A DNA stretch of 10,381 nucleotides, from contig WTAK01000302.1 of assembly GCA_013139625.1 (NCBI GenBank), forward strand, positions 1 to 10,381, read 5' to 3'. Positions 1 to 10,381 of the stretch are shown here, piece by piece (position 1 is the first letter of the stretch; every line of letters begins with the position of its first letter). Below the pieces are notes generated by a model. That model saw nothing but the letters and a program-made list of their open reading frames with translations. It had not been told where the DNA came from and ran no database searches. This DNA is from Candidatus Delongbacteria bacterium (GTDB lineage Bacteria; UBA4055). Made by a program: the position numbers and the translations under genes.

Positions 1-195
1 GAGATTTTACAGCTAATGCACTGACAATAAATGGCAGTTTGACATTGGATACAGGTGGAGCGGTAAGTAGATTTTCAACAGATGGTACTCTAGCAACTAA
101 TAGTGACAGTCATATTCCAACAGAAAAAGCGGTAAGAACTTATGTAACCAACAGTAAAGATAACTTAGGTGATCATATTGCTACTCAGAATGTGA

Positions 196-212
196 TATTA
201 CCTTTCTCATGA
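196..212 (+). other. Frameshift site in the first gene
   Basis: The reading frame has to change between the last recognisable residues of the upstream frame (TQNVIL, ending at 200) and the HDGGNEG of the downstream frame (from 208). The two frames overlap only in the open stretch 196-209. Removing one T from the TTT at 203-205 would join them as NVILPSHDGG. A small deletion here is also possible, because related fibre proteins usually have a few more residues between this Asn-rich segment and the DGGNEG motif (from memory of the family). Confidence 0.7.
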
Positions 213-263
213 TGGTGGGAATGAAGGTGTTTATGTAGATACAGGAGGAAATGTTACTATTAG

Positions 264-320
264 CGGCACTTCAACCTTAAATGGAACTCTCACAACTAGT
301 GGGACTTCAACCTTAAATGG
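264..320 (+). repeat. Two copies of a 36-base in-frame repeat
   Basis: The stretch at 264-284 recurs at 300-320 with almost no change; both contain ACTTCAACCTTAAATGG. It encodes two GTSTLNG segments 12 residues apart, which looks like short shaft sequence between the junction and the C-terminal domain of the first gene. Confidence 0.75.
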
Positions 321-1036
321 GGATGTCGGAATTGGAGCGGCACCAGCTTCTTCGTATAAATTGTATATTGTAGATGATTTTATATCAATTTTTGGTAATA
401 CAGATACTTCTACAGGTACATATACATATGGTGTTTACGGAGATGCAGATGGTGGATCAACAAGAAATATAAGTATTTATGGGGGTTCAGCAACAGGGAC
501 AGGAGTAAATTGGGCTGGATATTTTGAAGGGGACATAAATGTTACTGGTACTGTTTCGAAATCAGCTGATCAGGTAAAAATAGATCATCCATTATATCCT
601 ACGAATAAATTCTTATCACATTCAACTGTCACAAGTGACCAAATGACGAATATATATCATGGGAATGTAATATTAGGTAGTGATGGAAGAGCAATAGTAA
701 CAATGCCTGATTGGTTTGAATCAATAAACAGCGATTTTAGATATCAATTAACTGCTATTGGAGCTTCGGCACCGGGTTTATATATTGCTACAGAAATCAG
801 TAATGAAAGCTTTGAAATAGCAGGTGGAACACCGAACATGAAAGTTTCATGGATGGTTACAGGAATAAGGAATGATAATTACGCGAGGAAAAATAGACTT
901 GAAGTTGAAACAGATAAGGATTTAATTGAAAGAGGATATTACTTACATCCTGAATCATACGGCCAACCTAAAGAAATGGGTATAGATCATCAGCATGAAA
1001 AAGCAATGAAAGAACAAGCAGATAAATAAAAATCTA

Positions 1037-1040
1037 AGGA
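1037..1040 (+). promoter_or_regulatory. Ribosome binding site that bears on the start of the second gene
   Basis: AGGA lies 8 bases before the ATG at 1049 and 5 bases before an in-frame ATG at 1046. The wider spacing, and the MKK start shared by most paralogues in the array, favour 1049. Confidence 0.6.
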
Positions 1041-1048
1041 AAGATATG

Positions 1049-3079
1049 ATGAAAAAAATATTACCGATAATTTTAATGATCTTGATCTCACTGAATGCAG
1101 AAACATTATTTGAAGTGAAAGATACAAGTGATAATACTGTATTCTCCATATCGGATGATGGTATGAGAGTATTCAATCTAGGCGATACTTTGATGGTAAT
1201 AAGCTCATCAGACATAAAAGCATACATTGGCTCTAGCAAAGATAGAGCATTATCTCGTTCTTTTAGTATATCAACTAATACAACTGGAAAAGATGCTCAA
1301 ACTAATGTTCTAGAAGTTACAACTGGAGCAACTTACATGAGTGAAGGTGGGCTGGGGCGTAAGTATACAGATTTCAGCCCTGAAAACATTTTTATAGGGC
1401 TAAATTCCGGACTGGTAAATACAGGCATCAATAATGTTTTCTTAGGCAACGAAGCAGGATTGGATAATTTGGGAGCAAATGAAAATAACTTTATTGGATT
1501 TCAAGCTGGTTTTAATAATACGACAGGTTATAGAAATAATTTTATAGGTTTTCAAGCTGGATATTACAATACACTCGGTTATATGAATACCTTTATTGGA
1601 ACAGGTGCTGGTTTAAGTAATGTTGATGGGGATTATAATTCTTTGCTGGGATATTATTCAGGATATTTAGCAACTCTTGGTAACTATAATGTTTTTTCGG
1701 GATACTATAGTGGTTACAATGCTGACAATACCTCTAATTGTGTTTATCTTGGTTCGCATAGTGGTAGAAATGCTGACAATAGTACTAATAGTGTAGCGAT
1801 CGGATATTCCAGTGGATATAATAATAATGCTGCGAATAATGTTTTTATGGGTTATCGGGCAGGATATAGTAATACGACAGGGCATGATAATGCTTTTTTA
1901 GGAAGTGATGCAGGTTATTATTGCAATGGTTCGGTTAATGTACTTATTGGATTTGAAGCAGGTAAGGGAACTGCGGTTAACGATGCTCAATCGAATGTCT
2001 GTATCGGAGAAAGTGCGGCAAAAGCGCTTAATGATGCAGACCATAATGTATATATAGGTCGATTGGCAGGTTATGCTAATGCTAATGGAGACAGGAACGT
2101 ATATCTTGGAAGTGCTGCGGGAATGAATAATACAGGTCAGGAAAATACTTTTTTAGGATATTTTACGGGTATTAACAATTATACCGGAACTGGCAATACT
2201 TTTGTAGGCTATAACGCCGGAACTGCAAGTGGGAGCAATACATCTGGAAATGTTTGTCTTGGTTATTATGCAGGTGGTCAGGAGACAGGTTCAAATAAAC
2301 TCTATATTGATAATGGGAATACAACGACACCGTTAATCTATGGAGATTTTAGTTCTAATTTGTTAAGATTTACTGCAAATGTTGGTATTGGAGTAGACAA
2401 TACTTCATATGGCCTATATGTTAAAGACGATTACCTAGCAATTTATGGAGATACAGATGGTTCAAGCACCTATATTTATGGTGTTTACGGTGATGCGGAC
2501 GGAGGTACTACGAGGAGTGTAAGTATCTATGGTTCCTCTGCCTCCGGTACAGGAACCAATTGGGCAGGATATTTTTCTGGTGATATAAATGTTACAGGTA
2601 CAGTTGTAAAATCAGCAGATCAAGTTAAAATAGATCATCCTCTTGATCCTGAAAATAAATTTCTTTACCATGCGGATATTTCAAGTGATAAAATGACAAA
2701 TATTTATCATGGGAATGTTATTCTTGATAATGATGGAAAAGCAACAATAAAAATGGCTGAATGGATCGAAGATATAAACAGAGATTTTAGATATCAACTT
2801 ACAGCTATTGGTGCTCCAGGACCTAACTTGTACATCTCAAAGAAGTTATCAGATAATTCCTTTGAAATCTCCGGTGGAAAAGCCGCAATGGAAGTATCAT
2901 GGCAATTAACAGGGATCAGGAATGACAATTATGCCAAGAAAAATCCATTACAACTTGTAAAAGAAAAGAACAGTGATGAAAAAGGATATTACTTACATCC
3001 AACAGCTTATGATAAATCTGAAGAGATGGGTATAGAATTTAACATACAAAAGAAAATGGAAGCAGAAGCAGATAAATAA
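1049..3079 (+). CDS. Secreted repeat-fibre protein with a KIDHP/GIRNDNYA-type C-terminal domain
   Basis: This 676-residue protein is probably an exported homo-oligomeric fibre; no enzymatic function is recognised. Residues 1-17 form a signal peptide (MKK, a hydrophobic core, cleavage after LNA). Residues 20-110 are the array's conserved N-terminal domain: LFEVKDTSDNTVFSISDDG, GDTLMVIS, SKDRALSRSFSIST, then YTDFSPEN. Residues 114-415 hold 18 coils of the FIGxxAGxxNTTG repeat. The junction NKLYIDNGNTTTPLIYGDF begins at 416. From about residue 503 the NWAGYF domain runs to the end, with KIDHPLDPENKF, NIYHGNVIL, DFRYQLTAIG and GIRNDNYAKKN; it matches the gene upstream over about 200 residues. The start at 1049 is preferred over ATG 1046 because of spacing to AGGA. 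The gene follows the first one by 19 bases and precedes the next by 35, so co-transcription is likely. No membrane anchor or beta-barrel is visible. Confidence 0.92.
   Translation: MKKILPIILMILISLNAETLFEVKDTSDNTVFSISDDGMRVFNLGDTLMVISSSDIKAYIGSSKDRALSRSFSISTNTTGKDAQTNVLEVTTGATYMSEGGLGRKYTDFSPENIFIGLNSGLVNTGINNVFLGNEAGLDNLGANENNFIGFQAGFNNTTGYRNNFIGFQAGYYNTLGYMNTFIGTGAGLSNVDGDYNSLLGYYSGYLATLGNYNVFSGYYSGYNADNTSNCVYLGSHSGRNADNSTNSVAIGYSSGYNNNAANNVFMGYRAGYSNTTGHDNAFLGSDAGYYCNGSVNVLIGFEAGKGTAVNDAQSNVCIGESAAKALNDADHNVYIGRLAGYANANGDRNVYLGSAAGMNNTGQENTFLGYFTGINNYTGTGNTFVGYNAGTASGSNTSGNVCLGYYAGGQETGSNKLYIDNGNTTTPLIYGDFSSNLLRFTANVGIGVDNTSYGLYVKDDYLAIYGDTDGSSTYIYGVYGDADGGTTRSVSIYGSSASGTGTNWAGYFSGDINVTGTVVKSADQVKIDHPLDPENKFLYHADISSDKMTNIYHGNVILDNDGKATIKMAEWIEDINRDFRYQLTAIGAPGPNLYISKKLSDNSFEISGGKAAMEVSWQLTGIRNDNYAKKNPLQLVKEKNSDEKGYYLHPTAYDKSEEMGIEFNIQKKMEAEADK
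1388..2293 (+). repeat. 18 coils of a 16-17-residue beta-roll-like repeat
   Basis: The units follow the pattern (V/T)FxGxxAGxxNTxGxxN, for example TFIGTGAGLSNVDGDYN and VFMGYRAGYSNTTGHDN. The DNA copies are diverged but keep the period of about 48-51 bases and the reading frame. The Gly, Ala-Gly and Asn positions recur as in the left-handed roll of YadA-type heads. That fold is inferred from the pattern, not demonstrated. Confidence 0.85.
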
Positions 3080-3102
3080 AATTAAAACACTTTTAAACAA
3101 GT

Positions 3103-3108
3103 AGGGGG
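3103..3108 (+). promoter_or_regulatory. Ribosome binding site of the third gene
   Basis: AGGGGG lies 6 bases before the ATG at 3115. It is the most G-rich such site in the array and fixes the start of this gene. The 35-base gap it sits in shows no hairpin. Confidence 0.7.
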
Positions 3109-3114
3109 CATTAT

Positions 3115-5100
3115 ATGAAAAAGTTGTTTTTATCAATTATAGTACTGTTAGTATCACTAAGTGCAGAAACATTATTTGAGATCAAAGATACAAGTGATAA
3201 TGCTGTGTTTTCAATATCAGATGATGGTTTGAGAGTATTTAACCTCGGTGATACTTTGATGGTCATTACCACATCTGACATAAAAGCATATATTGGCGAT
3301 AGTAAAGATAGAGCCTTGTCGCGATCTTTTAGTATATCAACTAATACAACTGGAAAATCAGGTTTGGCAGATATTCTGGAGGTCACGACGGAAGATATGA
3401 CATTAAGGAGTGGTGTTGGAGGAGAGAAATATACAGATTTTAGTCCGGATAATATGTTTCTGGGATCAAACGCCGGAGCAAGCCGTACAACAGGGTCATC
3501 AAATGTGTTTATCGGTAATAATTCCGGGTTTTCTAATGAAGTTGGGAATTACAACATATTTCTTGGCTATAATTCCGGTTTTACTAATACGGCTAGCTAT
3601 AATCTATTTATTGGATTTGAAGCAGGAAAAAATAATCTTGATGGAACCTTTAATTCATTTATTGGTTATCAATCCGGTTTTACAAACTCATCTGGATTAC
3701 AAAATACTGCTAATGGTTTTATGACATTCCATTTCAATACTATTGGGAATTATAATACTGCCATGGGGTCATACGCATTGTATCATAATACAACAGGAAC
3801 AGATAATACCGCGATTGGTAATAATTGCTTATCATCAAATACTGAAGGTATAAACAATATCGCAGTTGGGTCAAGTGCATTACAATATACAACAACAGGG
3901 GACAAAAATACCGCTGTTGGAGCAGGATCACTTAGAAATAATATAACAGGGAATTATAACGCTGCTCTAGGAAATCTTGCAGGATATAATGCAACTGGTT
4001 CAAGCAATGCGTTTATAGGCAATTATGCAGGATTTAATGCAACTGGCTCAAGTAGTGCATTTATTGGATATTATGCAGGATATGATGCAACCGGATCAAG
4101 TAATATTGCGATTGGTTACGAAGCAGGATATGAAACAACAGGGATAAATGATGTTTTTATTGGATATAGAGCAGGGCGCTATAATACTACAGCTAGTTAT
4201 ACAACAGGAATAGGCTCTTGGGCGTTATATCATAATACAACAGGAATCGATAATACTGCGATTGGAAATAATTGCTTATCATCAAATACTGAAGGTTTTC
4301 GTAATATTGCAACAGGTTCAAGTGCTCTGCAATATACTACAACAGGGGATCAGAATACTGCTAATGGAGCAGCTGCACTTCGTACAAATATAATAGGTAG
4401 TAATAATACTGCCCTAGGATGCTTTGCGGGATATAGTACAACAGGATCGGGTAATGTCTTTTTAGGTGCTAACGCAGGATATAGTGAAACAGGATCAAAT
4501 AAATTATATATAGATAATTCAAATACAGCAACTCCATTGATTAATGGAGATTTTTCAACTAACTATTTAGGCATAAATGGGTTACTGAGTGTAAATGCCA
4601 ACAACCTAACATTAAGCGTGAGTCCTGGAGCTGGAGTGGATCCTATAAACTACATTTATCAGGGTGTTGCAGGAAGTTCTAATGTTAAGGATTATGCTGT
4701 TGCTATTTATGATCCACTTTGGGTTTCAGGGTCAGTATGGGCTGTTGCATACAATACGACCTCAGATAAAAGATTTAAGAAGAATATAGTACCTATTAGT
4801 AACGCTCTTAGTAAAATTTCTCAGATTGATGGGGTTTATTTTGAGTGGAATGATAATATGCTAAAGGTCAAAAATAATGAAGAACCGGAAATCAAACGAG
4901 ATCCTTCAAAGCAAATTGGTTTTATTGCTCAGGATATTGAAGAAGTTTTTCCAGAGATGGTAAGCACAGATGGAAGTGGGTATAAATCCGTTGATTATTC
5001 TAAGATGTCAGCTGTGTTATTAGAAGCAGTAAAAGAACAACAACAACAAATAAATATGTTAATTAAGGAGATTGAAACGATAAAGAATGCATCGAAATAA
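3115..5100 (+). CDS. Secreted repeat-fibre protein with a self-cleaving S74-type chaperone domain
   Basis: The 661-residue product has a signal peptide (residues 1-17, cleaved after LSA), the shared N-terminal domain (20-110), 21 repeat coils (114-461, the longest set here) and the junction from N462 (NKLYIDNSNTATPLINGDF). Residues 550 to about 655 form an S74 peptidase / intramolecular chaperone domain: SDKRFKKNI, FEW, IGFIAQDIEEVFPEMV and VDYSKMSAVLLEAVKEQQQQ, followed by a short coiled coil. In phage endosialidases this domain assembles the trimer and then cuts itself off between Ser and Asp. Here Ser550-Asp551 and a Lys at Ser+5 (K555), the dyad as I recall it, are present, so release of the last 111 residues is expected. 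The coils at residues 215-298 and 364-447 are two copies of an internal duplication. Finding this domain on a protein with a signal peptide is the odd feature. The domain call is strong; the cellular role is inferred. Confidence 0.93.
   Translation: MKKLFLSIIVLLVSLSAETLFEIKDTSDNAVFSISDDGLRVFNLGDTLMVITTSDIKAYIGDSKDRALSRSFSISTNTTGKSGLADILEVTTEDMTLRSGVGGEKYTDFSPDNMFLGSNAGASRTTGSSNVFIGNNSGFSNEVGNYNIFLGYNSGFTNTASYNLFIGFEAGKNNLDGTFNSFIGYQSGFTNSSGLQNTANGFMTFHFNTIGNYNTAMGSYALYHNTTGTDNTAIGNNCLSSNTEGINNIAVGSSALQYTTTGDKNTAVGAGSLRNNITGNYNAALGNLAGYNATGSSNAFIGNYAGFNATGSSSAFIGYYAGYDATGSSNIAIGYEAGYETTGINDVFIGYRAGRYNTTASYTTGIGSWALYHNTTGIDNTAIGNNCLSSNTEGFRNIATGSSALQYTTTGDQNTANGAAALRTNIIGSNNTALGCFAGYSTTGSGNVFLGANAGYSETGSNKLYIDNSNTATPLINGDFSTNYLGINGLLSVNANNLTLSVSPGAGVDPINYIYQGVAGSSNVKDYAVAIYDPLWVSGSVWAVAYNTTSDKRFKKNIVPISNALSKISQIDGVYFEWNDNMLKVKNNEEPEIKRDPSKQIGFIAQDIEEVFPEMVSTDGSGYKSVDYSKMSAVLLEAVKEQQQQINMLIKEIETIKNASK
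3454..4497 (+). repeat. 21 coils of the beta-roll-like repeat, of two kinds
   Basis: About half of the units are of the usual FIGxxAG kind, for example VFIGNNSGFSNEVGNYN. The others read TAIGxxxLxxNTxGxxN, with Leu in place of the second small residue, for example TAMGSYALYHNTTGTDN. Four consecutive units around 3961-4154 are very regular 16-residue copies (YNATGSS, FNATGSS, YDATGSS, YETTG). Confidence 0.85.
3757..4455 (+). repeat. Internal duplication of a five-coil block
   Basis: Block 3757-4008 and block 4204-4455 (252 bases, 84 residues each) match with a constant offset of 447 bases. The best part, 3781-3901 against 4228-4348, is about 85 percent identical by eye and includes 30 identical bases around TTGCTTATCATCAAATACTG. 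Four other coils (4009-4203) separate the copies. The divergence means this is not a recent event, although it is much closer than other coils are to each other. Confidence 0.8.
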
Positions 5101-5124
5101 ATAAATTGAAGAATAGTAGTCAAA

Positions 5125-5148
5125 ATGAGATTTAAAGATTTACAATGA
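5125..5148 (+). other. Possible seven-codon leader ORF overlapping the next start codon
   Basis: An ATG at 5125 opens the short frame MRFKDLQ, whose TGA (5146-5148) overlaps the ATG of the fourth gene in an ATGA. The fourth gene lacks a clear ribosome binding site, so translational coupling through this frame is conceivable. The leader has no convincing ribosome binding site either, and so short a frame can easily arise by chance. Confidence 0.2.
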
Positions 5149-6776
5149 AAAAAATATTATTAGTTATAATTACAATACTCTTCTCAGTAAACGCACAAGC
5201 ATTATTTGAGGTAAAAGATGCTCAAGATAGTACTGTCTTTCAAATTTCTAACGATGGTATGAGAGTCTTTAATGATGGTGATACTCTGATGGTGATAAGT
5301 TCATCTGAGATAAAAGCATTCATAAACCAAAGTAGTAAAGACAGGGCTTTATCTCGTTCTTTCAGTATATCAACCAATACAACCGGAAAAGATGGCAATG
5401 CAAATGTGCTTGAAGTTACGACTGAATCTACTAAAATGCGCGAGGGAACTCAAGGTAATCAATATACGGATTTTAGTTCTGAAAACATATTTATTGGACT
5501 TAATTCAGGAAATTCGATTATTGACGGAAAGTATAATATTTTCATGGGAAATAGCGCAGGATTTAACACTCTTGGGGGATTGCATGATCAGATGCCGGAC
5601 AGAGGTTTTTATAATGTGTTTATAGGATATGAAAGTGGCCTATCAAATACTTGGGGTCAAAATAATATCTTTATGGGATATAAAAGTGGATACTCTAATC
5701 AAGAAGGTTCTTGGAATGTGTTTATTGGAGATAAAAGCGGAATGAATTCCACCGGAGAGCAGAATACTTATATCGGGAATGAGGCAGGAATGAGTGCAAC
5801 TGATACTTATGGTAATTCATTCATTGGATGTAGGGCAGGATATAGCAATTACGAAGGAGAGCAGAATACATTTGTTGGTAAAAGTTCAGGATATTTTAAC
5901 TACAACGGTAGTCATAATACTTTTCTGGGAAGTAGCTCAGGAGACAACAGAAGCGGAGGAGACGGCAATACAATAATAGGATCTAACGCCGGTTCATTTG
6001 TAAATACTAACACTAGCAACAATGTTTTTCTAGGTTATGCCGCAGGACATGGAAACCGTGGTAGCGGAAATGTTTTTTTAGGAAATCAGGCAGGCAGTTA
6101 TTATACGAACGATACTGACTCTAATCGGCTTCATATTGCAAATACAAACACAGAAACTCCACTTATTTACGGTGAATTTGATAATAACCTAGTAAGGATA
6201 AATGGAAATTTTAATGTGACAGGGAATTGCACAACTGACAGTATGTTTATAGTAGAGACTCTGGAAATTGCAGATATGGGAGATACAAGTTTGGGTTTGG
6301 AGGGAGACATAATTCCTTATAGCTCAGTAAGTTATGACTTAGGAAATAATACTGCCACAGAACACTGGGATGATGTAGTTGGGGTTACTTTTATAAATTA
6401 TATCACTAAAAATTCGATAAAAGACATAAAACCAATAGATTCAGGTTTAAACAAGATCATGCAACTTAAACCAGTTACCTTCAAAAGTGACAGGAAAAAA
6501 TTTGGACTAATTCCTGATGAAGTTGAGAAGATCATACCGGAAGTAGTTATTTCTCAAGATATTGATTACGATCCTGCAACAGGTAAAAAAGTTATAACTG
6601 AAACAGAAAAAGGAATGAACTATATCGAACTTATTCCTGTGCTGATTAAATCAATCCAAGAGCAACAGGAAATAATAGAGAAGCAACAGGTAGCTATAAC
6701 AGAAAATAAAAAACTAAAAGCTGAGATTGAATATTTGAGATCAGAAATAGAAGAAATAAAAAAATCATTAAAATAG
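5145..6776 (+). CDS. Secreted repeat-fibre protein with an S74-like C-terminus lacking the cleavage motif
   Basis: The 543-residue protein has a signal peptide with a good A-x-A site (AQA, residues 17-19, before LFEVKD), the N-terminal domain in its second variant (QISNDGMRVFN, SSSEIKAFINQ), 12 repeat coils (115-326) and the junction SNRLHIANTNTETPLIYGEF (from 326). The C-terminal module has IADMGDTSLGLEGDI, then DLGNNTATEHWDDVVG, the usual lead-in to S74 domains, followed by NSIKDIKPIDSGLNKIMQL, FGLIPDEVEKIIPEVV and IELIPVLIKSIQEQQEI, and a coiled coil at about 500-543. Where S74 domains have SDxRxK, this protein reads ITKNSIK, so the Ser-Asp cleavage pair is missing. The domain probably still trimerises the fibre but stays attached. 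No strong ribosome binding site precedes the ATG, unlike its neighbours. Bases 5241-5449 are nearly identical to the seventh gene. Confidence 0.92.
   Translation: MKKILLVIITILFSVNAQALFEVKDAQDSTVFQISNDGMRVFNDGDTLMVISSSEIKAFINQSSKDRALSRSFSISTNTTGKDGNANVLEVTTESTKMREGTQGNQYTDFSSENIFIGLNSGNSIIDGKYNIFMGNSAGFNTLGGLHDQMPDRGFYNVFIGYESGLSNTWGQNNIFMGYKSGYSNQEGSWNVFIGDKSGMNSTGEQNTYIGNEAGMSATDTYGNSFIGCRAGYSNYEGEQNTFVGKSSGYFNYNGSHNTFLGSSSGDNRSGGDGNTIIGSNAGSFVNTNTSNNVFLGYAAGHGNRGSGNVFLGNQAGSYYTNDTDSNRLHIANTNTETPLIYGEFDNNLVRINGNFNVTGNCTTDSMFIVETLEIADMGDTSLGLEGDIIPYSSVSYDLGNNTATEHWDDVVGVTFINYITKNSIKDIKPIDSGLNKIMQLKPVTFKSDRKKFGLIPDEVEKIIPEVVISQDIDYDPATGKKVITETEKGMNYIELIPVLIKSIQEQQEIIEKQQVAITENKKLKAEIEYLRSEIEEIKKSLK
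5241..5449 (+). repeat. Near-identical copy of 10173-10381
   Basis: Aligned base by base with 10173-10381, this 209-base stretch shows only three differences (5317, 5325 and 5342). It codes for the second half of the conserved N-terminal domain. Upstream of it the two genes differ heavily in the signal-peptide region. Confidence 0.9.
5487..6122 (+). repeat. 12 coils of the beta-roll-like repeat, one with a long loop
   Basis: Typical units are VFIGYESGLSNTWGQNN and SFIGCRAGYSNYEGEQN. The second unit is extended by about nine residues (LGGLHDQMPDRGFYN), which breaks the period and probably forms a protruding loop near the base of the shaft. Confidence 0.85.
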
Positions 6777-6779
6777 AGG
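6776..6779 (+). promoter_or_regulatory. Ribosome binding site overlapping the preceding stop codon
   Basis: GAGG begins with the last base of the fourth gene's TAG stop (6774-6776) and lies 7 bases before the ATG at 6787. The 10-base gap between the genes is the shortest in the array and points to translation from one shared message. Confidence 0.7.
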
Positions 6780-6786
6780 TACTATT

Positions 6787-8496
6787 ATGAAAATAATAAT
6801 TTTTATCTTTGTATTGCTTTCAGCATTATTATTGAATGCAGAAACATTATTTGAAGTTAAAGATGCTCAAGATAGTACGGTATTCTCAATATCAGATGAC
6901 GGTATGAGAGTTTTCAACCTAGGTGATACTTTGATGGTAATAACTACGTCTGACATTAAAGCATATATTGGTGAGAGCAAAGATAGAGCTCTGTCTCGCT
7001 CGTTCAGTATTTCTACAAATACAACAGGGAAAGGCTATACCAATGCTTTTGAGGTAGGATCAGATTCAACTAAAATTGGAACTAGTTCCACCACAATGAG
7101 AGCTGGAGGAGCAGGAAGATATACAGCTTTTGGTTTGGAAAATATGTTCATTGGATTAAACTCCGGTATATCAGCAACTCCTGGATTACCTGAAGCATAT
7201 TCAGGTAAATATAATGTATTTCTAGGAAATGATGCTGGAGCGAGTAATACTTCAGGATTTTTAAATACTTTTTCAGGTTATCAAGCCGGTATGGCAAATA
7301 CTGAAGGGAATCAGAATTCTTTCTATGGCTTTCATGCAGGTTATTCAGCAACTTCAGGTACAGATAACGTTTTTATTGGAACTAGAGCAGGTTATTCAAA
7401 CTCAACAGGAAGCTATAATGTGAGTATTGGTAACGATGCTGGATCTGCGAATTCAGGTACAGGTAATGTTAATATTGGCAACGAAGCTGGTATGAATAAT
7501 AAATCAATTGCCAATGTTTTTATTGGAACTTCTGCAGGTAAAGCTAATTCTGATGGTGCTGCGAATACATTTATAGGCAACTTAGCCGGAGCAATTAATA
7601 CAACCGGAACATACAATACATATATGGGCTGGACTGCAGGTGCCAGTAACAATGGAAGTAATAACACATTTCTTGGTACTTGGGCAGGATGGAATGTGAT
7701 AGGTGCAGATAATAATGTTTATTTAGGATATTTTACCGGTAAAGGAAATGATTATGGTGATAATAATGTATTTATAGGTAGTAATGTTAATGTTGGAGGA
7801 TCAGATAAATTAGCTATTGATAATATGTCCACTAGCACTCCACTAATTTATGGAGATTTTGGGACAAATGCTTTGACTATTAATGGAACCCTTTTAGCGA
7901 CTGGAAATACAGGAGTTGGTGGTAATTTGACTATTACAGGTAGTGCTATAGTACAAGGCTCAATACAAACTTATAGTAATGCGCTAGTGGCTGGTACTCT
8001 TACTACTGGAGGAAATGCAACGATCAACGGTTTTACTAATATTGTGAATGATGCAGATGTAACAGGTGCAAAAGGACTTGTTATTGATACTGATGGTGAG
8101 TGGGGAGATATTCCTTTAAGAATTAGGACAAATGCAACTGCATCAGGATGGACAGATGATGATACACAATTTATTGTTTGGGGTGATGGATGTGTAGAAT
8201 CCAAGTCTATAAAAATTAATAGCGGCACAGAGATTTATATGACACAATCTGGAACGATCATTGTAGGTACTCATTCTGGTGGAGTAAAAACTGTAACTAA
8301 AACTTTTGATACTGCCTTTACTGCGGTACCCAAAATAAATGTTACTGCTAAAGGAGATGCCGCTACAGATGTGTATGCAGTTACAACAAGAAATGTAACT
8401 ACGACATCATTTCAGGTAAATATTTATAGAGTCGATAATCCAGGTGGTGGATGGGGACAGAATTTAAAAATAGATTGGTTTGGATGGCAACAGTAG
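6787..8496 (+). CDS. Secreted repeat-fibre protein with an H-type-lectin-like tip
   Basis: The 569-residue protein has a signal peptide (1-18, cleaved after LNA), the N-terminal domain in its first variant (SISDDGMRVFNLGDTLMVITTSDIKAYIG, seen in overlapping parts), 13 repeat coils (120-338) and the junction SDKLAIDNMSTSTPLIYGDF (339 on). A shaft of short TGN/TIxG repeats follows (about 370-415). Residues 489-569 resemble H-type lectin and related phage-fibre tip domains: FDTAFTAVPKINVTAKG, then NVTTTSFQVNIYR, then GWGQNLKIDWFGWQQ at the very end. In H-type lectins such beta-sandwich trimers bind sugars, so this could be a glycan-binding tip. That assignment rests on the pattern 'aFtavPkinv ... 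vTttgFqv ... W' and is moderate. There is no S74 domain or coiled coil. A short insertion (STKIGTSSTTMR) in the N-terminal domain is unique to this copy. Confidence 0.92.
   Translation: MKIIIFIFVLLSALLLNAETLFEVKDAQDSTVFSISDDGMRVFNLGDTLMVITTSDIKAYIGESKDRALSRSFSISTNTTGKGYTNAFEVGSDSTKIGTSSTTMRAGGAGRYTAFGLENMFIGLNSGISATPGLPEAYSGKYNVFLGNDAGASNTSGFLNTFSGYQAGMANTEGNQNSFYGFHAGYSATSGTDNVFIGTRAGYSNSTGSYNVSIGNDAGSANSGTGNVNIGNEAGMNNKSIANVFIGTSAGKANSDGAANTFIGNLAGAINTTGTYNTYMGWTAGASNNGSNNTFLGTWAGWNVIGADNNVYLGYFTGKGNDYGDNNVFIGSNVNVGGSDKLAIDNMSTSTPLIYGDFGTNALTINGTLLATGNTGVGGNLTITGSAIVQGSIQTYSNALVAGTLTTGGNATINGFTNIVNDADVTGAKGLVIDTDGEWGDIPLRIRTNATASGWTDDDTQFIVWGDGCVESKSIKINSGTEIYMTQSGTIIVGTHSGGVKTVTKTFDTAFTAVPKINVTAKGDAATDVYAVTTRNVTTTSFQVNIYRVDNPGGGWGQNLKIDWFGWQQ
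7144..7800 (+). repeat. 13 coils of the beta-roll-like repeat
   Basis: Units such as VFIGTRAGYSNSTGSYN and TFIGNLAGAINTTGTYN keep the Gly and Ala-Gly positions. The first unit carries an extra loop (ISATPGLPEAYSGKYN), as in the neighbouring copies. The last unit is shortened (VFIGSNVNVGGSD) before the junction. Confidence 0.85.
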
Positions 8497-8504
8497 AGAA
8501 TAAA

Positions 8505-8510
8505 GAGGAA
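8505..8510 (+). promoter_or_regulatory. Ribosome binding site that decides the start of the sixth gene
   Basis: GAGGAA stands just before the ATG at 8517. The frame is open further upstream to an ATG at 8451, but that start lies inside the preceding gene, lacks a ribosome binding site and would put 22 residues before the signal peptide. Confidence 0.75.
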
Positions 8511-8516
8511 TTTATT

Positions 8517-10061
8517 ATGAAAAAAATATTATTGGCAATTATGATTACCGTTTTTTCGCTGAATGCACAGGCATTATTTGAAGTCAAAGATGCTCAAGAC
8601 AGTACCGTATTTGAAATTTCAAATGATGGTATGAGAGTATTCAATTTAGGGGATACTTTGATGGTGATAAGTTCATCGGAGATAAAAGCATTCATAGATC
8701 AGAATAGTAAAGATAGGGCATTATCCCGTTCTTTTAGCATTTCAACTAATACAACAGGAAAAGATGGCAATGCAAATGTGCTTGAAGTTACAACCACTGA
8801 AACCACAATGAGAGAAGGTGGAGCTGGTAACAGGTACACAAATTTTAGTCCTGAAAATATTTTTATTGGATTAAATGCAGGTATTCTGACTTATCCGCAT
8901 GATGGTCCTTTTGGTGCTGAATTCGGTGAGGATAATATTTTCATAGGAAACCAAACAGGGATAGCTAATAATGACGGCTTTGGAAATATTTTTATAGGTT
9001 CTCAATGTGGAGTAAATAATGATTCAGGATATCAAAATATGTTCATAGGTAATGAGAGTGGAGCATCAAATGCTGATGGATATTTTAATCTTTTCATTGG
9101 AAACCATAGTGGAGGATCAAATATAAGCGGAGCTAGAAATACTTTTGTAGGATTTCATTCTGGTGCGAGTAATATTTCAGGTGTAGCAAATACCTTTTTC
9201 GGTAATAGTGCATCCTTTGGGTCTACTACAGGAAGTAGAAATACAACAATGGGGTATGAAGCGGGTCAATATAATAATACGGGAAGTTATAATTCTTATT
9301 TTGGTTCTGATGCGGGAGAGAAGAATGCTGGGGGAAGCTATAATTCAATTGTTGGAGCGGGAGCAGGAAGCGGTGTCTTGAGCAGCAGTTTTAGTAATAA
9401 TTCTTACTTAGGTTATCAGTCAGGTTTCTCTAACGCAACAGGTTCCGGGAATGTTTTTCTTGGTTATCAAGCAGGTTACAATGAAACTTTGTCGAATAAG
9501 CTGTACATAGATAATTCAAGTACTGCTACTCCTTTGATACATGGTGATTTTGCATCAGACGTTCTAACAGTTAATGGAACTCTTAAGGTTAAAACCATGG
9601 AAATTGCAGACATGGGAAGCAGCAACTTAGGCTTGGATGGAGATGTTGTCCCTTATGGTGGTAGTGCATTGGGCTTTGATCTTGGAAATAATAATGCTAC
9701 AGAGCATTGGGATGATATTGTTGGAGATGATTTCATAAACTATGCCGTAAAAAATGCAAAAGATGTAAAATCTATTGAAGCAGGTTTGGGTAAAATCATG
9801 CAATTAAGACCTGTATCCTTTACAAAAGACAGACAGAGATTTGGTCTTATTCCTGAGGAAGTTGAAAAAATCTTACCTGAAGCAGTTATTTCTCAGGATA
9901 TAGATTTTGATCCTGAAACTAAAGAAATGAAGGTAAAAGTAACAGAAAAAGGTATGGTCTATGACCAGTTGATACCAGTTCTAATAAAATCTATCCAAGA
10001 ACAGCAAGAAATAATTAAAAAACTTGAAGTTAGAATAATTAAATTGGAAAATAACAATTAA
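8517..10061 (+). CDS. Secreted repeat-fibre protein with an S74-like C-terminus lacking the cleavage motif
   Basis: The 514-residue product starts MKKILLAIMITVFSLNAQA, a signal peptide with an AQA cleavage site, then LFEVKD. The N-terminal domain is of the second variant (EISNDGMRVFN, SSSEIKAFIDQ). Twelve repeat coils follow (115-326), the first with a long loop (ILTYPHDGPFGAEFGEDN), and then NKLYIDNSSTATPLIHGDF at 327. The C-terminal module parallels that of the gene at 5145: IADMGSSNLGLDGDVVPYGG, DLGNNNATEHWDDIVG, KNAKDVKSIEAGLGKIMQL, FGLIPEEVEKILPEAV, LIPVLIKSIQEQQEIIKK, ending in a coiled coil. At the S74 cleavage position it reads YAVKNAK instead of SDxRxK, so self-cleavage is not expected. 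The two modules share most key positions yet differ in many others, so they are old paralogues. The gene lies 20 bases after the fifth gene and 15 before the seventh. Confidence 0.93.
   Translation: MKKILLAIMITVFSLNAQALFEVKDAQDSTVFEISNDGMRVFNLGDTLMVISSSEIKAFIDQNSKDRALSRSFSISTNTTGKDGNANVLEVTTTETTMREGGAGNRYTNFSPENIFIGLNAGILTYPHDGPFGAEFGEDNIFIGNQTGIANNDGFGNIFIGSQCGVNNDSGYQNMFIGNESGASNADGYFNLFIGNHSGGSNISGARNTFVGFHSGASNISGVANTFFGNSASFGSTTGSRNTTMGYEAGQYNNTGSYNSYFGSDAGEKNAGGSYNSIVGAGAGSGVLSSSFSNNSYLGYQSGFSNATGSGNVFLGYQAGYNETLSNKLYIDNSSTATPLIHGDFASDVLTVNGTLKVKTMEIADMGSSNLGLDGDVVPYGGSALGFDLGNNNATEHWDDIVGDDFINYAVKNAKDVKSIEAGLGKIMQLRPVSFTKDRQRFGLIPEEVEKILPEAVISQDIDFDPETKEMKVKVTEKGMVYDQLIPVLIKSIQEQQEIIKKLEVRIIKLENNN
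8859..9494 (+). repeat. 12 coils of the beta-roll-like repeat
   Basis: Units include IFIGSQCGVNNDSGYQN, LFIGNHSGGSNISGARN and VFLGYQAGYNETLSN. Two units depart from the pattern: TFFGNSASFGSTTGSRN, and an 18-19-residue one ending SSSFSNN. The array ends directly at the NKLYIDN junction. Confidence 0.85.
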
Positions 10062-10065
10062 TTAT

Positions 10066-10070
10066 AAGGA
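10066..10070 (+). promoter_or_regulatory. Ribosome binding site of the seventh gene
   Basis: AAGGA lies 6 bases before the ATG at 10077. A nearer ATG at 10073 runs into TAA after three codons, so it is not the start. Confidence 0.7.
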
Positions 10071-10076
10071 TCATGT

Positions 10077-10381
10077 ATGAATAAACTAGTACTAATAATT
10101 TTCATTATTTTTGTTACACTGAATGCACAGGCATTATTTGAGATCAAAGATGCTCAGGACAGTACGGTTTTTCAAATTTCTAACGATGGTATGAGAGTCT
10201 TTAATGATGGTGATACTCTGATGGTGATAAGTTCATCTGAGATAAAAGTATTCATAGACCAAAGTAGTAAAGATAGGGCTTTATCTCGTTCTTTCAGTAT
10301 ATCAACCAATACAACCGGAAAAGATGGCAATGCAAATGTGCTTGAAGTTACGACTGAATCTACTAAAATGCGCGAGGGAAC
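10077..10381 (+). CDS. Start of a further secreted repeat-fibre protein (partial)
   Basis: The gene runs off the window end after about 101 codons. It begins MNKLVLIIFIIFVTLNAQA, a signal peptide with an AQA cleavage site, followed by LFEIKDAQDSTVFQISNDG, FNDGDTLMVISSSEIKVFIDQ, SKDRALSRSFSIST and TTESTKMREG. This is the second N-terminal variant, also found in the genes at 5145 and 8517. From 10173 the DNA is almost the same as 5241-5449, while the signal peptide region is different. Both relatives carry the non-cleaving S74-like module, so the same C-terminus might be expected here, but nothing in the window shows it. Confidence 0.9.
   Translation, partial: MNKLVLIIFIIFVTLNAQALFEIKDAQDSTVFQISNDGMRVFNDGDTLMVISSSEIKVFIDQSSKDRALSRSFSISTNTTGKDGNANVLEVTTESTKMREG
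10173..10381 (+). repeat. Near-identical copy of 5241-5449
   Basis: 206 of 209 bases match the fourth gene; the differences are at 10249, 10257 and 10274, and two of them change a residue (Ala to Val, Asn to Asp). The match is cut by the window end and may continue. Confidence 0.9.

Follow-up and report, generated by a model that had tools for sequence, protein, structure and literature searches.

Why would a bacterium keep, side by side, several genes for secreted fibres that begin alike and end differently? The question is raised by a 10,381-nt stretch of Candidatus Delongbacteria DNA (the window), which is the whole of contig C67 of a metagenome-assembled genome (MAG; 2.6 Mb, 486 contigs, 88% complete). 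An earlier, sequence-only reading took it for a tandem array of at least seven fibre genes with a constant base and shaft and an exchangeable tip. In our analysis the window is probably part of a chromosomal locus for a battery of Sec-exported, probably homotrimeric fibres that would work like the mosaic adhesive trimers (MAT) of Bdellovibrio bacteriovorus. The architecture of the genes, their locus, exchange between them and recent copying can be read at the level of sequence.

Architecture of the array

As listed below, the genes g1 to g7 all lie head to tail on one strand, with intergenic gaps of 10 to 44 nt. The plan claimed for them was seen, namely a signal-peptide-like start, an N-terminal domain (base), repeats (shaft) and an NKLYIDN...GDF-type junction before the tip. 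The count of at least seven genes was too generous in one respect: the same-strand array is there, but only g2 to g6 are complete, g1 being the tip of a sixth fibre gene and g7 the base of a seventh.

3..1029, + strand: g1, 3' part; the window starts inside its junction; KIDHP tip in open reading frame (ORF) 361-1029
1049..3079, + strand: g2; base 1049-1384, shaft 1385-2293, junction 2294-2350, KIDHP tip 2351-3076
3115..5100, + strand: g3; base 3115-3450, shaft 3451-4497, junction 4498-4554, tip 4555-5097
4762-4962, + strand: canonical S74 of g3, with SDKRFK
4600..5060, + strand: tract of g3 common to a gene of contig C206; 23-29 of 30 nt alike per 30-nt window from 4611, less alike upstream
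5145..6776, + strand: g4; base 5145-5483, shaft 5484-6122, junction 6123-6179, tip 6180-6773
5238..5477, + strand: base tract of g4 near-identical to g7 (from about 10170) and to contig C466; likeness stops at the base/shaft border
6420-6548, + strand: degraded S74 of g4, without SDxxxK
6787..8496, + strand: g5; base 6787-7140, shaft 7141-7803, junction 7804-7860, tip 7861-8493
8212-8490, + strand: H-type-lectin-like end of g5
8517..10061, + strand: g6; base 8517-8855, shaft 8856-9494, junction 9495-9551, tip 9552-10058
9759-9887, + strand: degraded S74 of g6, without SDxxxK
10077..10379, + strand: g7, base only, truncated by the contig end

g1 has neither base nor shaft in the window, and its frame is broken near nt 200-212: the frame-3 ORF stops at 212 and the tip resumes in frame 1, through a sequencing or assembly error or through decay. 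An alternative start of g2, the ATG at 1046, is possible. Judging from an exact 79-nt overlap, g7 probably continues in contig C466 of the same MAG, with a KIDHP tip; the overlap sequence is present twice in the window, in g4 and in g7.

Base and export

The base is a conserved domain of about 95 amino acids (aa) that follows the signal peptide. Bases are 67-87% identical among g2 to g6, and up to 96% with g7. By a hydropathy rule, a signal-peptide-like start was found in 70/70 bases with an intact start, which supports export of the fibres by Sec. A lipobox-like motif occurs in 2/70 base genes, in one of the two upstream of the likely start.

The base profile matched 11 of 41 genomes (the window's own and 40 others), all in the window's family, where 11 of 13 genomes carry base and array genes and G002 and G004 gave no base match. 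Searched against a protein database, it matched 94 proteins, from Delongbacteria wherever the organism is named. Eighteen named loci matched at E 5e-16 or better, 12 of them Candidatus Delongbacteria and the other six unnamed bacteria or UBP11; the 12 weaker named matches were Salinivirgaceae (11) and Gemmatimonadetes. A base-bearing protein found through the KIDHP tip search, P0024, has a Clostridiales MAG as its recorded source.

In these bacteria a type IX secretion system (T9SS) is apparently much used, with SprA in 6/6 genomes including the window's and 29-63 Por_Secre_tail domains per genome. That the fibres are T9SS cargo was rejected, since no C-terminal sorting domain was found in them, though the genomes hold so many.

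Shafts

The shafts are built of repeats mostly 16-17 residues long with the motif N-x-F-I-G-x-x-A-G. Over the 66 units in the window genes the N is conserved in 95% and the G in 100%, and the spacing is 17 in 38 intervals and 16 in 11. The shaft had been called constant like the base, a description that fails: among g2 to g6 shafts are 40-50% identical, far below the bases. Pfam calls YadA_head in 10/56 relatives of g2, and among the matches listed seven such relatives carry this same base with fewer than four NxFIG repeats; the kind of shaft therefore seems to be exchangeable as well.

Tips

Four tip classes had been distinguished, and all are real: KIDHP (g1, g2), canonical S74 (g3), degraded S74 (g4, g6) and H-type-lectin-like (g5). 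The KIDHP tips of g1 and g2 are identical at 149/242 residues (62%); among g2 to g6, the tips of g4 and g6 are 60% identical and the remaining pairs 22-34%. A further class in the family, LCV, is a short coiled end. When tip class was assigned at 45 bits or more, with tip profiles seeded from these same genes, 67 genes could be classed: 37 S74, 16 KIDHP, 8 LCV and 6 lectin.

The g3 tip matches S74 (PF13884) at 60.7 bits, above the cut-off of 22, and g4 and g6 at 29.7 and 26.8 bits. SDxxxK, needed for self-cleavage, is kept only in g3 and missing in g4 and g6, so that the distinction drawn earlier between a cleaving and two non-cleaving S74 tips holds as a prediction, and g3 should self-cleave. 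The motif is present in 28/37 S74 tips; of the remaining nine, five read SSxxxK. Solved structures among the S74 relatives are those of phage fibre chaperones and of myelin regulatory factor.

The g3 shaft and S74 match 728 phage records, all below 60% identity and nine with at least 80% coverage, and they align with the fibre of Pelagibacter phage HTVC111P (92% covered, 30.5% identity); PHROG tail and virion families match too. Such likeness would be expected if the array were a prophage, tailocin or extracellular contractile-injection (eCIS) tail-fibre cassette, providing alternative fibres for a phage-derived particle. We hold this very improbable. The array genes have signal-peptide-like starts and a chromosomal locus whose position is the same in several genera; no base relative was found in viral contigs, KIDHP and lectin tips had no phage match at 1e-5, and by eye no phage structural gene was seen among the array neighbours listed. 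A phage or eCIS origin is disfavoured by the signal peptides, the neighbours and the viral contigs taken together.

The g5 tip scores 20.6 bits against PF09458 (H-type lectin), under the curated cut-off of 24, and its best PDB match has an E value of 0.33; precomputed PF09458 annotation is found on 5/6 listed non-self relatives. The KIDHP tip (2417-3076) is without a match in Pfam or PDB. With an E value of 0.001 as the limit, 3200 related proteins were found, those listed being filed under several phyla, and the tip looks like an unnamed domain family. Of 197 collected proteins, 66 join it to this base, 41 to a YQGxL base and 17 to other bases, and therefore the tip has travelled beyond this locus. 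The YQGxL domain is presumably the N-terminal domain of MAT proteins. Borrowing of tips from elsewhere in the genome was considered and rejected: in 13 genomes, every match to the KIDHP tip (20) and to the lectin tip (6) lay on a contig with array genes.

Exchange of modules

Full agreement between N-terminal and C-terminal phylogenies would have spoken against module exchange. The base tree (61 of the 67 classed genes, 112 columns) does not predict tip class. Tip class changes 24 times on it, with a shuffled mean of 24.0 and as low a count in 119/200 shuffles. Trees holding each class to one clade were rejected for the three classes tested (p-AU 1.1e-5 for KIDHP, 1.4e-5 for lectin, 2.3e-38 for LCV), and the eight bases of the window's own genome form one group (100/98) containing all four classes. 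The genome label follows the base: for S74 genes (n=35) it changes 15 times on the base tree (shuffled 25.2, 0/200 as low). For KIDHP genes (n=14) it changes 8 times on the base tree (shuffled 9.9, 4/200) and 10 times on the tip tree (9.8, 157/200). Module exchange between bases and tips is thus supported by the trees.

Recent exchange was sought at four-fold degenerate sites. We collected 85 ORFs, each with a base or with three or more repeats; at least two of these ORFs are GLUG-type neighbours with chance motifs. Pair tests used the 58 genes with a recognised junction, the other 27 being truncated at contig ends, mere stubs, free of repeats or lacking such a junction. Four of 573 contrasts (203 within-genome pairs) survive Bonferroni correction, at p values of 1.7e-8, 3.6e-5, 4.6e-5 and 8.0e-5, and two are in the window's genome. 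Between g4 and the C466 gene, the base is alike at 18/18 four-fold sites and the shaft at 7/33 (1.7e-8). Between g3 and the C206 gene, the tip is alike at 46/59 sites and the shaft at 13/38 (3.6e-5), the base at 11/30; the base-tip contrast of this pair (1.9e-4) falls short of Bonferroni. The common tract at 4600..5060 is, by this evidence, a case of recent tip copying. The other two survivors are a pair in G005 (base 30/45, tip 19/69) and one in G010 (tip 21/33, shaft 7/41). The g4/C466 case touches contig ends and the g3/C206 case lies inside contigs.

The sequence-only reading had module changes always falling after the junction. The recent breaks contradict it: one is at nt ~5478, at the base/shaft border of g4, and the other at ~4600, about 50 nt past the junction of g3. 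As a breakpoint the junction fared unevenly. In seven pairs with related shaft and unlike tip, six breaks fall -6 to +13 residues from the junction end and one at +49, a closeness partly built in by the choice of pairs; by the same fit, none of three pairs with related tip and unlike shaft breaks there (-38, +130 and +166, the last disturbed by an unlike coiled end).

Shafts have a history of their own. All-against-all comparison of the 58 genes (1653 pairs) gave a median shaft identity of 0.45, with 60% or more in 22 pairs, 21 of 1450 between genomes and 1 of 203 within a genome. The 21 cross-genome pairs have 62-98% shaft identity, and 12 of them are between genera; their tips are related (at least 0.5) in 11 and unlike (below 0.45) in 10, in 4 of the 10 belonging to another class. 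The lectin-tipped g5, for instance, has 191/223 shaft residues in common with an LCV-tipped gene of G001, in which the lectin tip sits on a different gene with its shaft at background (96/213). Base and shaft do not form the constant unit once proposed: base identity exceeds shaft identity in 184/184 within-genome pairs, yet in only 5/20 cross-genome pairs with related shafts. The genes of one genome share a base and those of different genomes can share a shaft; therefore three modules assort, not two.

In six related pairs, the shaft ratio of non-synonymous to synonymous change (dN/dS) was 0.015, 0.076, 0.057, 0.051, 0.034 and, in one, saturated, against 0.40 in the g3 pair with unlike shafts; the values are rough because similar shafts were the ground for choosing the pairs and dS is above 1 in several of them. 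Since shafts recur across genomes, are strongly conserved (0.015-0.076 in five pairs), are rarely duplicated (1/203) and are variously tipped, we tentatively suggest, with more doubt than confidence, a three-slot set in which base, shaft and tip are separately inherited and recombined, the shaft too carries specificity, and each genome would hold a non-redundant shaft-by-tip set on one base. Two lectin-tipped genes of different species (L098:6735-8066 and L102:3-1412) are identical at 223/228 shaft and 114/118 tip residues, although no more than 64/107 and 41/67 of their four-fold sites agree (base 62/79), which points to very strong constraint on the shaft.

Locus, neighbours and expression

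In nine genomes (G001, G005-G012) the array begins directly after the gene for a nucleotide-cyclase/TPR protein of about 1220 aa, the gene being seen in eight and, read by eye, by its end alone in the ninth. Cyclase, AAA and TPR domains were identified in the G011 copy, and the protein is a possible regulator of the fibres; the copy of the window's own genome lies on a contig without fibre genes. The gene (L084, L087, L088, L090, L091, L094, L097, L100) has further relatives in four of the 13 genomes. At the other end the locus is bounded by an opposite-strand M16 peptidase gene, seen on array contigs from G000 (C466), G001, G003, G005, G006 and G008, preceded in two of the six by a phosphofructokinase-like gene (named by eye). 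It is not a universal border: in G007 and G011 it lies elsewhere, and in G004 it is fibre-less within the stretch taken. In G005 the entire locus is on one contig, with two fibres and one stub.

All 22 loci with at least two fibre ORFs have them on a single strand, and 55/60 gaps are 44 nt or less. The suggestion that the fibres are used as alternatives is unsupported by the single strand and short gaps, by promoter-like and terminator-like sites at chance level (47 vs 49.2 and 4 vs 3.3) and by inverted repeats that are imperfect and at most 32 nt; the last also led us to reject invertible cassettes. Joint expression would fit better. A related proposal, that the fibres are phase- or antigen-variable, a single gene being expressed at a time with the rest as stores, draws on the recombination between copies and on truncated base stubs in C206 and G005. 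It is nevertheless quite improbable, as the majority of genes are full-length and have a start of their own, the strand and gaps are as above, long inverted repeats were not found and promoter-like sites are at chance in a scan blind to novel promoters. Base-only stubs of 66 and 68 aa within arrays (L021:2940-3140, L087:5222-5428) are probably decayed copies.

Large secreted proteins of one kind stand beside or between the fibre genes in eight genomes (by eye), with a GLUG motif in 4/4 scanned. With such neighbours, with an SLH anchor on one KIDHP relative of another group (1/38) and with shafts as the most constrained part in related pairs, the fibres could be structural units making up a sheath, a matrix or a surface layer rather than serve recognition. 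The variety of tips, lectin-like ones included, would point to recognition, and we consider the structural alternative unlikely.

Proposed mode of action

For the MAT-like battery we propose the following. The base typical of the genome would hold the fibre at the cell with the tip outward, the shaft would be a run of beta-roll-like repeats, and the tip would come in several kinds: KIDHP, H-type lectin, short coiled end, and S74, either as a self-cleaving chaperone or in a form that does not cleave. In S74 fibres this domain would bring the three chains into register; where it retains SDxxxK it would then release itself, which makes the segment from the junction to S74 the true tip. An array is probably transcribed as a unit, and its various fibres would then stand next to one another on the cell. 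Recombination between gene copies would keep the bases of a genome alike and shift tips from shaft to shaft. Trimer formation, anchoring, surface display, co-expression and binding are here what we infer.

Several results weigh against this account. Pfam makes no YadA_head call in the g2-g6 shafts, a hydrophobic C-terminal segment was found in 0/65 fibre proteins, and the T9SS sorting domain (PF18962) is absent by Pfam from the window proteins and the 56 relatives. The base alignment is short, the bootstrap of its tree had not settled and 23/58 inner branches are open. Some genome signal persists in S74 tips (22 changes on the tip tree, shuffled 25.1, 4/200 as low), and 0/985 same-genus cross-genome contrasts survive Bonferroni (best 8.1e-4). 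Contigs break at repeats, and therefore the g4/g7/C466 case may involve assembly.

Relation to known fibres

The report on MAT describes a signal peptide, a conserved beta-rich N-terminal domain of about 130 aa, a homotrimeric fibre and exchangeable tips, which are S74 (SDxxxK) or a different adhesive fold, lectins among them, with many members per genome, tip swapping and proven surface display (PMC10769870). Signal peptide, a conserved N-terminal domain (here of about 95 aa), a probable fibre, exchangeable C-terminal tip, swapping and multiplicity are likenesses to the array, whose proteins have a signal-peptide-like start and a C-terminal S74 with SDxxxK or another tip. The array differs in being tandem at one conserved locus, in its NxFIG repeat shafts, themselves exchanged, and in its KIDHP and H-type lectin tips, and no predatory life is reported for Delongbacteria in the open-licence PMC literature (titles and abstract starts). 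MAT are thus the closest known system, by analogy of working. The array is a candidate member of the MAT superfamily, though its base does not match the YQGxL domain, presumably the MAT one, by profile comparison (probability 0.3%, with no Bdellovibrio sequence among those compared).

Trimeric autotransporters were also compared. The Vomp adhesin genes of Bartonella quintana stand in tandem with a conserved 5' part (PMC10936683); this arrangement and the YadA head repeats in relatives of g2 are likenesses. In contrast, no YadA-type C-terminal beta-barrel anchor was found by Pfam in the window proteins or the 56 relatives, and the array fibres have their base at the N terminus and their tip at the C terminus.

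No treatment of fibre arrays in Delongbacteria was found in the open-licence PMC literature (titles and abstract starts). What is new is the particular set of tips, the tandem arrangement at one conserved locus and the fact that base, shaft and tip each have their own history. By this finding, batteries of MAT-like fibres would exist outside a predator too, in an uncultured lineage. The array is likely a toolkit for gripping different surfaces; its conserved locus lets the evolution of recognition be read directly, and the separate histories predict which part binds what. On contig C364 (L104, 1-7500) the same MAG carries a single, isolated S74 fibre gene whose base is of the YQGxL kind (YQGRL-type); its neighbours encode a protein with FG-GAP repeats and a C25 peptidase of the gingipain type.

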